Shown here: positions 18,934 through 23,117 of the stretch, piece by piece
How positions within the stretch are numbered: the stretch's first letter is position 1
Layout: each line of letters starts with the position of its first letter
NCBI RefSeq assembly: GCF_013201665.1
Contig: NZ_CP053840.1
Span: 248,001-312,000 of the forward strand
Direction of reading: 5' to 3'
DNA: 64,000 nucleotides
From: Arcobacter venerupis
Lineage (GTDB): Bacteria > Campylobacterota > Campylobacteria > Campylobacterales > Arcobacteraceae
Made by a program: the position numbers and the translations under genes
Notes under the pieces: model-generated
Seen by the model: the letters and a program-made list of their open reading frames with translations, nothing else
Told to the model about the DNA's origin: nothing
The model's database searches: none

Positions 18934-18970
18934 TCCGTCCACTTTTTGTGAAACTTCAAAAATATTTTGT

Positions 18971-19048
18971 CGGGGCGTAGCGCAGTCTGGTTAGCGCACC
19001 TGGTTTGGGACCAGGGGGCCGGAGGTTCGAATCCTCTCGCCCCGACCA
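18971..19048 (+). tRNA. tRNA-Pro (anticodon TGG)
   Basis: Full cloverleaf: acceptor CGGGGCG pairs with CGCCCCG, anticodon stem CCTGG/CCAGG around TTTGGGA, T-loop GGTTCGAATC, CCA encoded. First gene of the cluster. Confidence 0.97.
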
Positions 19049-19065
19049 CTTTATTTTTAACCTGT

Positions 19066-19143
19066 GGTAGGTATAGCTCAGTCGGTTAGAGCATCTGGTT
19101 GTGGTTCAGAGGGTCGTGGGTTCGAGCCCCATTACTTACCCCA
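19066..19143 (+). tRNA. tRNA-His (anticodon GTG)
   Basis: Acceptor GTAGGTA pairs with TACTTAC (one G-T). The extra 5' G at 19066 faces C73, the tRNA-His identity element. Anticodon loop TTGTGGT. CCA encoded. Confidence 0.96.
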
Positions 19144-19158
19144 TTTTTTTATATTGTT

Positions 19159-19235
<77 letters not shown>

Positions 19236-19285
19236 TTTTTTTTGGTTTAGATTACCAACTAGACATTTTTTCAAAAAAATTTATT

Positions 19286-19370
19286 GCGGATGTGGTGAAA
19301 TTGGTAGACACGCCAGACTTAGGATCTGGTGCCTCACGGTGTGGAAGTTCGAGTCTTCTCATCCGCACCA
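19286..19370 (+). tRNA. tRNA-Leu (anticodon TAG)
   Basis: 85 bases with the long variable arm of a class II tRNA (GTGCCTCACGGTGT). Acceptor GCGGATG pairs with CATCCGC. Anticodon stem CCAGA/TCTGG around CTTAGGA. CCA encoded. Confidence 0.96.
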
Positions 19371-19377
19371 CTATTGA

Positions 19378-19454
19378 GCGGGAGTAGCTCAGTTGGCTAG
19401 AGCTTCTGCCTTCCAAGCAGACTGTCGCGAGTTCGAGTCTCGTCTCCCGCTCCA
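19378..19454 (+). tRNA. tRNA-Gly (anticodon TCC)
   Basis: Acceptor GCGGGAG pairs with CTCCCGC, discriminator T, anticodon stem TCTGC/GCAGA around CTTCCAA, CCA encoded. Confidence 0.96.
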
Positions 19455-19458
19455 TTTT

Positions 19459-19505
19459 AAAAGCCTTATATAAGAAGTTTACACTTTTTATATAAGGCTT
19501 TTTTT
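19459..19505 (+). terminator. Strong terminator of the five-tRNA operon
   Basis: A 14-bp perfect stem (AAAAGCCTTATATA at 19459-19472 with its complement at 19489-19502) followed by T residues. It separates the tRNA-Gly gene from the second tRNA-Arg copy. Confidence 0.92.
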
Positions 19506-19521
19506 AGCTTTATTAATTAGT

Positions 19522-19598
<77 letters not shown>

Positions 19599-19605
19599 CT
19601 TTTAC

Positions 19606-20055
19606 TTATATTTTATAAAAATCTGATAACTCTATCATTCTATTCGTCGATTGAAGTTTATTTTCTAAATGTTCTGTATTTTCATTTGTTTCTGAACAAT
19701 CATTATTTTCAAGTTCTTCTTTAAAAAAATTACTATAATTTCTTTGATTTAAAATATGTAAGTCACCTTCTGAGTATTTTAATAACAAATTATCTATTTC
19801 TATTGTTTTATCACCAGCAAAATATACTCTAATATTATTCATAAGTTTTAAAAATTCTTTTTTACCTAAATATGAAGTAATAAGAGTATCTACATTTTTA
19901 CTTTTTAGCCAATCTATAACAGCTTGTCCATTTTTTTGTTCATTTTTTATAATCTCTATACCTTTATTGTTAATTAAAGCAAAATATTTAGCTTTTCCAA
20001 AAAGTGTAGAAATAGCACTATTTAATTTATTTGTTTTTACGGGTATTGCAATCAT
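19606..20055 (-). CDS. NifX/NifB-type (dinitrogenase cofactor-binding) domain protein of the cytochrome bd operon
   Basis: 149 residues. The first 100 form a NifX-like alpha/beta domain: MIAIPVKTNKLNSAISTLFGKAKYFALI, then GQAVIDWLKSKNVDTLITSYLGKKEF and VYFAGDKTIEIDNLLLKYSEGDL. The tail (about 105-149) is Asn/Glu-rich and probably disordered, with one Cys (DCSE). Family members bind or carry metal cofactors, but no nitrogenase genes are present here. The gene overlaps the 33-residue ORF before it (ATGA) and is last in the cyd operon, so a role in oxidase assembly or heme/iron handling is the inference. It converges on tRNA-Arg copy 2. Confidence 0.82.
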   Translation of the reverse strand: MIAIPVKTNKLNSAISTLFGKAKYFALINNKGIEIIKNEQKNGQAVIDWLKSKNVDTLITSYLGKKEFLKLMNNIRVYFAGDKTIEIDNLLLKYSEGDLHILNQRNYSNFFKEELENNDCSETNENTEHLENKLQSTNRMIELSDFYKI

Positions 20056-20153
20056 TTTATCTCCTTTGTTGCATTTAATATTGAGATTTTATATCCAAGA
20101 TATATAACCACAGGCCAAAGACTTAACCATAATAATTCATTAATATATTCCAT
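20052..20153 (-). CDS. 33-residue single-helix membrane peptide, CydX-like candidate
   Basis: A short frame that fills the gap between cydB and the NifX-like gene. It starts ATG at 20153, 15 bases after the cydB stop, with TAGGT upstream, and its TGA overlaps the next ATG (ATGA). The peptide begins MEYINELLWLSLWPVVIY and has one hydrophobic helix (about 7-27) with two Trp residues, then a short polar tail ending in Lys. Small one-helix subunits (CydX, CydS, CydH) are known in bd oxidases, though I see no clear sequence match to them. The position, coupling and topology make a small oxidase subunit the leading idea. Confidence 0.68.
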   Translation of the reverse strand: MEYINELLWLSLWPVVIYLGYKISILNATKEIK

Positions 20154-20168
20154 AATTTATACCTACTT

Positions 20169-21302
20169 TTAATAATTGTGAGAATCTTTTGATTCAATCT
20201 CTTCTTTTGTAATTTTTACTTTATCCATGCTATACCAAGCATAACTTATATAAGCTAATACAAATGGAACCATAAGTGAAACATAACTCATTGTCATTAA
20301 CGTATAGAGGCTTCCTGAACTATTCATAATAGTTAAGCTACTTTGTAAATCACTTGTTGATGGATAATAAGAGGTATTATTTAATCCCACATTTAATAAA
20401 ACAGCCATTACAGTAAGTACAATTCCAACTCCTCCTGTTTTTATACAACAAGTTTTTTTAAATGTAATAGTTACAAATACAGCAACTATAACCATTAAAA
20501 CTCCAATTAAAAACATTCCTAAAACAATAGGCATATCAATAAAATTTTGAAGATATTTAAATCTTTCAATAATGATTAAACCACTTTTTTCAACAGCATA
20601 TCCATCTTTAATAAGAATCCAGCCCATAAATCCTAAGAAAAATATTAAAAAGAAAATCATATTTATTTTGATTGAATTAACTGCTTTAATTCTTATTTTT
20701 TCATAATCAATATTATTTATAAAATATAAAGCACCACTAATTTTTGCCAAAAATACAAGAGCAAAACCTAAAAGATAATTATATGGATTAAGAAGTGCTT
20801 CTAATCCTCTCAGAGGATTTTGCCAATCTACAAAGTTGTTAGAATCAACTATAAATTCACTTCCACTAAAAAAGGTACTAATAGCAACTCCTAATAAAAA
20901 TGTTCCAATATTTCCATTTATTTTTAAAAACATTTCAAATGTTTTTTGACCTAAAAAATTATTTGGTTTTGTTCTAAATTCATAACTTACAGCTTGGATA
21001 ATAAAACAAAAAAGAATTGCTAACCAAACCCAATAAGCTCCCCCAAAACTTGTTGCATAGAATAAAGGAAAAGCAGCAAATAATCCACCACCAAATAGAA
21101 CTAAAGTTGTAAACCCAAGTTCCCATTTTCTTCCAATACTATTTATTAACATTGTTTTTTCTGTTTCATTTTCACTTAATTTATCTATTAAAGTTTGTCC
21201 ACCTTGAACAAACATAATAAATACAAAAAGACCACCAAGTAAAGATATTATAATCCACCAATATTGTTGAAGGCTTAAAAGTTCAAGTGATCCAAATCCC
21301 AT
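20169..21302 (-). CDS. cydB: Cytochrome bd quinol oxidase subunit II
   Basis: 377 residues, about nine membrane helices, starting MGFGSLELLSLQQYWWIIISLLGGLFVFIMFVQGGQTL, the CydB N-terminal pattern with the conserved Gln-rich turn. It forms the structural partner of CydA in the terminal oxidase of the inner membrane. The start codon directly follows the cydA stop without a gap. A 33-residue membrane peptide and a NifX-like gene follow. Confidence 0.93.
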   Translation of the reverse strand: MGFGSLELLSLQQYWWIIISLLGGLFVFIMFVQGGQTLIDKLSENETEKTMLINSIGRKWELGFTTLVLFGGGLFAAFPLFYATSFGGAYWVWLAILFCFIIQAVSYEFRTKPNNFLGQKTFEMFLKINGNIGTFLLGVAISTFFSGSEFIVDSNNFVDWQNPLRGLEALLNPYNYLLGFALVFLAKISGALYFINNIDYEKIRIKAVNSIKINMIFFLIFFLGFMGWILIKDGYAVEKSGLIIIERFKYLQNFIDMPIVLGMFLIGVLMVIVAVFVTITFKKTCCIKTGGVGIVLTVMAVLLNVGLNNTSYYPSTSDLQSSLTIMNSSGSLYTLMTMSYVSLMVPFVLAYISYAWYSMDKVKITKEEIESKDSHNY

Positions 21303-22832
21303 TTAGTGCTCCTTACTTTCAGGCCCAAGACCTATTTGTTTTGTCATAATTTTTATTTCAGCAATTAGTAATACGGTAAAAAGTATTGCAAATACAAAAA
21401 AGCTAATCATTACATTGGTAGAAGCTATTTTTGTTGCTGCAATGCCTACTGGCATTAAATCTTGAATAGCCCAAGGCTGTCTTCCAACTTCTGCTACAAT
21501 CCAACCAGCTTCACTTGCAATATATCCAAGAGGAATACTCCATAAGGCAGATTTTAGAATAATTGGATATTTCATAATATCTCTTTTTGTTAAAAAGAAT
21601 AAGACAATTATAAAAAGTAAAGTAAACCACATTCCAAGAGCAACCATAATATGAAATGAATAAAAACTAATTGCAATTGGTGGAATTACATCTTCTTTGT
21701 TTTTAATGTGTCCGTAACCAAAATATTTCATATTTTCTTCAAGTAATACCTTTGATTCATTTTGTAATAGTTGATTATTGGAATCTTTTGCTTCTTTGTA
21801 ATTTTCTAAAGAATTTATAGCAATTTTTCCTTTTTGCATTTTTTCTTCTGTACTAATTATTCCTTGTTCTTCATTCCCATAAACTAAATCTTTTATTCCC
21901 GGCACATAAGCATTAATATTGTGATAACTTAATAAAGATAAAGCATAAGGGATTGTGAACTCAAAAAGAAAAGCTTCTTCATTATTTGAAATTGTTTTTT
22001 TAGGATTTAATATTCCAAAGGCAACAATTCCTGCATCTTCTTTTCCCTCATATAAACCCTCAATCGCAGCTAGTTTCATAGGTTGTTTAAGTGCAACTTG
22101 ATGTGCTGATTCATCTCCACTTAGGATTAGAAAAAATGAAGTTACAAGTCCAAAACTAGCTCCAATAATCATTGATTTTTTGGCAAATAGTATATCTCTG
22201 TCTTTCAATAAATACCAAGCACTAATACCAATTACAAATAATGAAGCTAAAACATAACCACTTCCAATAGTATGTAAAAACTTACTAATAGCAACTGGTG
22301 AGAATAAAACATCCCAAAAATTATTCATCTCATTTCTTACAGTATTTGGATTAAAAGTCATTCCTGTTGGGTATTGCATCCAACCATTTGCCACAAGTAT
22401 CCATAAAGCTGATAGATTTGAACCAACTGCAACCAACCAAGTTGATAATAAATGAAAACCTTTACTTACTTTATTCCAGCCAAAAAACATAACAGCAAAA
22501 AAAGTACTTTCTAAAAAGAATGCAAAAATACCCTCAATTGCAAGTGGAGCTCCAAAAATATCCCCAACAAACCAAGAATAATTTGCCCAGTTTGTACCAA
22601 ATTCAAACTCCATAATAAGACCAGTTGCTACTCCAATGGCAAAATTTATAGCAAATAAGCCCATCCAAAATTTTGTAGTTTTTTTCCAAAATTCATCATT
22701 TGTTTTTACATAAATAGTTTCCATAATAGCAACAATAAACCCAAGCCCAAGTGTTAATGGAACAAAAATCCAATGATACATGGCTGTTAGTGCAAATTGG
22801 GCACGGGACCAATCTACTAAATGCTCTTCCAT
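21303..22832 (-). CDS. cydA: Cytochrome bd quinol oxidase subunit I
   Basis: 509 residues with nine helices. The axial heme ligand His is in ALTAMYHWIFVPLTLG (near residue 20), the second is in the KFLHTIGSGYVLAS helix, and the conserved GRQPW sits in AEVGRQPWAIQDLMP. The periplasmic Q-loop region (about 250-360) is of the short type, lacking the long E. coli insertion. The enzyme oxidises quinol and reduces oxygen with high affinity. Such short-loop forms are often called CIO in Campylobacterota. The DUF4492 gene lies 12 bases upstream. Confidence 0.95.
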   Translation of the reverse strand: MEEHLVDWSRAQFALTAMYHWIFVPLTLGLGFIVAIMETIYVKTNDEFWKKTTKFWMGLFAINFAIGVATGLIMEFEFGTNWANYSWFVGDIFGAPLAIEGIFAFFLESTFFAVMFFGWNKVSKGFHLLSTWLVAVGSNLSALWILVANGWMQYPTGMTFNPNTVRNEMNNFWDVLFSPVAISKFLHTIGSGYVLASLFVIGISAWYLLKDRDILFAKKSMIIGASFGLVTSFFLILSGDESAHQVALKQPMKLAAIEGLYEGKEDAGIVAFGILNPKKTISNNEEAFLFEFTIPYALSLLSYHNINAYVPGIKDLVYGNEEQGIISTEEKMQKGKIAINSLENYKEAKDSNNQLLQNESKVLLEENMKYFGYGHIKNKEDVIPPIAISFYSFHIMVALGMWFTLLFIIVLFFLTKRDIMKYPIILKSALWSIPLGYIASEAGWIVAEVGRQPWAIQDLMPVGIAATKIASTNVMISFFVFAILFTVLLIAEIKIMTKQIGLGPESKEH

Positions 22833-22844
22833 TTTAAATTCCTT

Positions 22845-23057
22845 TTAATTTTCTTTGATTAGATTTTTATATACAAAATCAACTTTCTCTTCATATGTCT
22901 TATATTCAGATTTTAATGATTTATTGTCAATGAAAAGATTTATAAATATAAGTAAAACTAATAATTTTATAATGATAATTTTCCATAAAGTCTTACCTAG
23001 TCTCATATTCTTGAAACCATTAAGATAAAAATAATATACATTCTTAATTATTAACAT
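22845..23057 (-). CDS. DUF4492 membrane protein of the cytochrome bd operon
   Basis: 70 residues from the ATG at 23057, which has AAGGAAAA upstream; an in-frame ATG at 23093 lies on the -10 element and is rejected. The sequence VYYFYLNGFKNMRLGKTLWKIIIIKLLVL is the DUF4492 hallmark: an amphipathic start, one membrane helix, then a charged C-terminal helix. DUF4492 genes are found directly upstream of cydA in Campylobacterota and Bacteroidota, so an assembly or small-subunit role is inferred. It is the first gene of the operon. Confidence 0.88.
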   Translation of the reverse strand: MLIIKNVYYFYLNGFKNMRLGKTLWKIIIIKLLVLLIFINLFIDNKSLKSEYKTYEEKVDFVYKNLIKEN

Positions 23058-23088
23058 ATAATTTTTCCTTATTATAATTATAAAAGAA

Positions 23089-23117
23089 AGCATAACACTT
23101 TAGTAAATATAAGTCAA
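23089..23117 (-). promoter_or_regulatory. Promoter of the DUF4492-cydAB operon
   Basis: On the minus strand TTGACT (23112-23117) and TATGCT (23089-23094) are separated by exactly 17 bases; transcription would start near 23081, about 25 bases before the DUF4492 start codon. Confidence 0.7.

Follow-up and report, generated by a model that had tools for sequence, protein, structure and literature searches.

The 33-residue frame after cydB in Arcobacter venerupis is cydY (cioY), the gene of a previously described one-helix bd oxidase subunit

Does the short gap between cydB and a NifX-like gene in Arcobacter venerupis contain a gene of its own, and does this gene encode a subunit of the bd oxidase? 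The bd oxidases are drug targets. The initial annotation of the window (the whole analysed stretch of 64,000 nucleotides, contig NZ_CP053840.1, positions 248,001 to 312,000) suggested a hidden 33-residue membrane peptide in this gap, potentially a new accessory subunit. Comparative analysis of the locus confirmed the gene and demonstrated that it is cydY (= cioY), the gene for a subunit described previously.

Results

Gene layout of the cydAB locus

The genes are transcribed from the minus strand in the order DUF4492 gene, cydA, cydB, 33-residue open reading frame and NifX-like gene, with the following features.

22845 to 23093, minus strand: DUF4492 gene (CydW-like small membrane protein), 5' of cydA; PF14899, E 8e-22; present in nearly all relatives
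21303 to 22832, minus strand: cydA, oxidase subunit I, 509 aa, long Q-loop; PF01654, E 9e-167; nearest solved chain 6rko_A
20169 to 21302, minus strand: cydB, oxidase subunit II, 377 aa; PF02322, E 5e-68; TIGR00203 over cut-off
20161 to 20165, minus strand: TAGGT, Shine-Dalgarno-like site of cydY, 7 nt 5' of the ATG; relatives often have AGGAG there
20052 to 20153, minus strand: cydY/cioY, gene for a single-helix subunit of 33 aa; ATG 20153-20151, TGA 20054-20052; identified by the open frame, homologues, pN/pS and adjacency to cydB in relatives
20100 to 20106, minus strand: TATATAT within cydY (around Val16-Ile17-Tyr18); the other genomic copy carries an additional TA and is frameshifted
20052 to 20055, minus strand: ATGA, in which the cydY stop overlaps the NifX-like start codon; the same overlap is found in most same-genus relatives
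19606 to 20055, minus strand: NifX-like gene, 149 aa, overlapping the cydY stop; Nitro_FeMo-Co/NifX-like PF02579, E 7e-10

The cydY start codon lies 15 nt after the cydB stop with GTAGGT 7 nt upstream, and the encoded peptide is MEYINELLWLSLWPVVIYLGYKISILNATKEIK. The coordinates, ATG start and 33-residue length proposed initially were confirmed, and the AGGT-type site and the ATGA overlap are both present in the sequence. The product was described as one hydrophobic helix with a polar end, in agreement with our analysis; the helix is moderately hydrophobic (best 19-residue Kyte-Doolittle mean 1.53) and the C-terminus is Lys-rich. The conserved CydA haem ligands were mapped to H20, H187, M396, E100 and E448, and the Q-loop has 150 residues, compared to 148 in E. 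coli, with the same anchors.

Conservation and selection

The same gap was compared across the Campylobacterota cyd operons, as the initial annotation had proposed, and nearly all relatives had the same frame 8-18 nt after cydB, in most cases behind a better Shine-Dalgarno sequence (AGGAG). Peptide matches at E<=1 were detected in 52 of the 101 genomes of the family sample, with identity decreasing from 91% to about 40% and the frame remaining open; a metagenome-assembled genome labelled Aliarcobacter butzleri (L064) carries cydY at 59% identity. At 29 of the first 30 loci, cydY is located 8-16 nt 3' of a cydB whose product ends with K(I/M/L)TKEE....H.Y, and is usually preceded by AGGAG or similar; the thirtieth locus (L026) is a cydY relic. 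Trp13 is present in all 66 distinct homologues, Pro14 in 61 and Tyr18 in 57 of them.

Purifying selection on the frame, a check proposed in the initial annotation, was detected with 11 homologues of the same length: pN/pS was 0.26 in the true frame, compared to 0.83 and 2.44 in the shifted frames, and none of 1000 column shuffles gave a value as low. Disruption of the frame in close relatives would have spoken against a gene; the frame is intact in every family-sample relative with cydAB, the sole exception being a 2-bp frameshift in a second cydAB copy of the same genome. The occurrence of the same frame after cydB in nearly all relatives, together with the pN/pS value and the shuffles, is far beyond chance, and cydY is a genuine, strongly conserved gene. 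Short frames are common in short AT-rich gaps, and many are present in the list of open reading frames of the window; a chance origin of the frame behind cydB is nevertheless practically inconceivable in view of the conservation, the Shine-Dalgarno sites and the phylum-wide linkage, and is refuted by the pN/pS value and by profile matches beside cydB throughout the phylum.

Co-occurrence of cydY with cydAB

The distribution of cydY was analyzed in the family sample (101 genomes) and in a phylum sample (347 genomes), with cydB counted over the Pfam cut-off. All 41 family genomes with cydB over the cut-off contain cydY. The phylum was searched with a profile built from Arcobacteraceae only and a peptide threshold of E<=0.01; with this profile, the gene was detected beside cydB in numerous further families belonging to the order. 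There cydB is over the cut-off in 144 of the 347 genomes, and cydY was found by profile in 125 of the 144, adjoining cydB in 123 of these 125 (coordinates compared by eye). Among the remaining 19 cydB genomes, 16 contain a divergent cydY 8-10 nt after cydB, bringing the phylum total to 141/144; in one genome (G181) cydAB is decayed, and in two of the 144 (G192 and G301) cydAB is intact and cydY was not found. Weak profile matches in two genomes lacking cydB (G038 and G066, E 0.002-0.009) were taken as chance, as was a match at a locus labelled Parvibaculum (L070), located inside a longer frame with no cyd genes nearby. A tblastn search of plasmids with the cydY peptide gave no match.

Loss and unlinking of the genes were also detected. 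In G322 an intact cydY (L126:3527-3640) lies 42 kb from cydAB, and cydY is missing from the long stretch behind cydB; in G242 (L128) an intact cydY lies about 0.5 kb from cydB. In G093, in G100 and at a third site of the present genome (G000), cydAB was lost, and a remnant of the cydB tail and a cydY relic precede an intact NifX-like gene; in all three relics the second Trp codon has become TAG, a stop at codon 13. The relics beside an intact NifX-like gene and the intact unlinked copies argue that cydY is kept with cydAB and not with its downstream neighbour.

Scars of lost cydAB were observed at L071:5310-5850, L072:3942-3446, L073:3949-4492 and L075:6844-6413, each with a stop-bearing or eroded cydY and an intact NifX-like gene; a relic cydB tail is present in these scars, except in L075, where none was seen.

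The NifX-like gene (PF02579, 19606-20055, minus strand) overlaps cydY in Arcobacteraceae, in a translationally coupled arrangement, and is kept after the loss of cydAB. Its linkage to cydY is confined to Arcobacteraceae and some neighbouring families, and thus it does not belong to the core cassette. Given the coupling of both frames through ATGA in this genus, the short frame could be viewed mainly as a translational coupling or leader element for the NifX-like gene, with an incidental peptide. We consider this very unlikely: conservation acts on the amino acids of cydY and not on the open frame alone, cydY decays while the NifX-like gene stays intact when cydAB is lost, and most relatives outside Arcobacteraceae retain the peptide in the absence of the NifX-like gene. 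The relics and the relatives without the NifX-like gene refute coupling as the main function.

Identity of the subunit

In their screen of long-Q-loop cydAB operons without cydX, Allen et al. (2014) gave the name CydY to a short one-helix frame after cydB; it has an absolutely conserved Trp and occurs in Epsilon- and Deltaproteobacteria, with Arcobacter butzleri and Campylobacter in their figure (PMC4325964). Froschauer et al. (2025) demonstrated translation of the Campylobacter jejuni gene by Ribo-seq and western blot and renamed it CioY (PMC11955535). In the same study, reciprocal co-immunoprecipitation established CioY binding to CioA, the conserved W, P and Y were noted, and a model of CioY bound to CioA had it in the CydX position (PMC11955535).

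The comparison with C. jejuni CioY, made by published features, identified the 33-residue gene as cydY (cioY). It is located directly after cydB, has a ribosome binding site, encodes one helix with the invariant Trp and the conserved Pro and Tyr, accompanies a long-Q-loop CydA without cydX and has homologues throughout the phylum. The length is 34 aa in C. jejuni and 31-45 aa in Arcobacteraceae. We found no feature separating the present gene from CydY/CioY; the present copy is one of two in the genome, the other being frameshifted. The proposal of a one-helix accessory subunit of the bd oxidase thus stands for this operon peptide, but the subunit is not new, having been named in 2014 and linked to CioA by binding in 2025 (PMC4325964, PMC11955535). 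The name CioY avoids a clash with E. coli YnhF (CydH), which Thesseling et al. (2019) also called CydY (PMC6853902).

The initial annotation pointed out that most annotations miss the small one-helix subunits of bd oxidases; no Pfam or NCBIfam model matched the cydY peptide or any of 22 homologues. The gene is therefore easily overlooked, and a model built from the collected homologues would fill this gap in both resources.

The initial annotation saw no obvious similarity to CydX, and this was borne out by the family scans. The CydX motif YxxWxxGx15E/D occurs in 97% of CydX (PMC4325964), whereas its YxxWxxG part was found in none of the 66 CydY homologues. PF08173 (CydX) gave no match in 150 genomes of the order, with a positive E. 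coli control, and E. coli CydX was not among the CydY-profile matches standing above shuffles. Profile comparison by hhalign gave a weak alignment of 15 columns, W-x3-W on W-x3-W, with a probability of 4%, which is not significant; a search of solved structures with the CydY profile gave no match. CydX (PF08173 / TIGR02106) was rejected as the identity of the peptide on the basis of the family scans and the motif. E. coli CydX/AppX (PF08173) resembles CydY in operon position, spacing (14 nt after cydB for E. coli cydX, 8-18 nt for cydY), size, the single helix, Trp at the helix start and the deduced N-out/C-in orientation, but differs in the motif, which CydY lacks, and in family assignment, and the profile match between the two is not significant.

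CydZ (DUF2474, PF10617), also encoded after cydB, is a one-helix peptide and has a conserved Trp, but its partner is a CydA with a short Q-loop; this identity was rejected by the CydA type and by the absence of a PF10617 match. CydH (YnhF) of E. coli bd-I likewise binds CydA and has one helix and about 30 aa, but probably occupies another CydA site; its orphan gene is located outside the cyd operon, while cydY is inside the operon. CydW of Porphyromonas gingivalis, a small membrane protein encoded in the cyd operon (PMC4668044), matches the DUF4492 gene in position and size; it is a different gene, at the opposite operon end from cydY, and is not the 33-residue peptide.

Orientation of CydY

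A CydY form of 70 aa with an N-terminal signal-like sequence, for example MKKIILLLTLFFANFLFAAEKLMPNG...TTWGVILFFMWPILIIISYKFIEFTLKKSGLEKDL, was detected in the f5 family (L107-L113, L125; G104, G106, G127, G138, G183, G379, G313, G137). A CydY profile excluding f5 matched four of five tested f5 members at E 4e-8 to 4e-6 and the fifth at 2e-4, compared to 0.025 for the best shuffle. We found no description of the 70-residue signal-bearing form in the CydY/CioY literature consulted. The mean net charge of the CydY homologues is -1.2 before the helix and +1.6 after it. Because the signal sequence precedes the helix in the 70-residue form, an N-out/C-in orientation of CydY is implied by sequence, and the charges fit. 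The C-terminal part of E. coli CydX is cytoplasmic by cryo-EM (PMC6853902), and Allen et al. gave the opposite orientation for CydX (PMC4325964).

Second copy of the cydAB tract

A second DUF4492-cydA-cydB-cydY-NifX set is located at G000:C1:1707354-1710765. Positions 22856-19973 of the window and L071:9552-12437 (G000:C1 about 1707551-1710436) are identical over about 2.9 kb except for one TA, and outside this shared tract the identity is about 70-75%. The near-identical 2.9-kb tract with such flanks suggests a likely recent gene conversion or duplication of cydAB. The extra TA in the second cydY leads to a frameshifted product of 26 aa, and the difference reflects either an error in the assembly or a genuine loss for which the intact cydY copy compensates. 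That TATATAT slips in vivo, switching one operon between an oxidase with and without CydY, seems a rather far-fetched explanation.

Discussion

The analysis corrects the suggestion of a new subunit to a known one and provides evidence of its distribution, selection, co-loss with cydAB, unlinked retention and orientation. The additions to previous knowledge are the phylum-wide family with the invariant Trp, the 70-residue signal form and the frameshifted second copy.

E. coli CydX lies on CydA helices 1, 5 and 6, where it clamps the haem-binding bundles, and assembly requires it (PMC6853902, PMC8951039). CydY would be made from the cydAB operon, its gene having roughly the position of cydX in E. 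coli, and would insert with an external N-terminus and a Lys-rich C-terminus on the inner side. The helix may then pack against CydA, with the CydX site near helices 1, 5 and 6 as the probable location, and clamp the helix bundle holding the haems, contributing to the assembly or stability of the active enzyme and not to catalysis itself. By analogy, clamping of the CydA haem-binding bundle as in CydX is the most likely mode of action; the assembly/stability role would be carried over from E. coli CydX, for which the profile comparison with CydY is weak (probability 4%) and does not establish common ancestry. Froschauer et al. suggested the same role for CioY (PMC11955535). Overall, we regard it as highly probable that the gene is cydY and encodes a single-helix CydAB subunit packing on CydA and clamping the haem bundle for assembly or stability.

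CydY could instead occupy the CydH (YnhF) site and control gas access to haem b595. CydH, a one-helix CydA subunit between helices 1 and 9, blocks an oxygen channel (PMC8951039); CydA has two such sites, and the sequence does not decide which one CydY takes. Occupation of the CydH site appears unlikely, however, given that cydH is an orphan gene while cydY is found where cydX is, 8-18 nt after cydB, that the published CioY/CioA complex model has the CydX site (PMC11955535), and that the only partial alignment found for CydY, a weak one, is the W-x3-W match with CydX.

Nearly every Campylobacterota cydAB operon that was examined has the DUF4492 gene (22845-23093, minus strand here) 5' of cydA. 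A literature search under the name DUF4492 found no paper; Allen et al. mention an upstream hydrophobic protein without a name (PMC4325964), probably the product of this gene. Beside the operon, a tRNA-like cluster was noticed by reading only at window positions 18970-19600, with the same sequence occurring twice, near 19160 and 19520.
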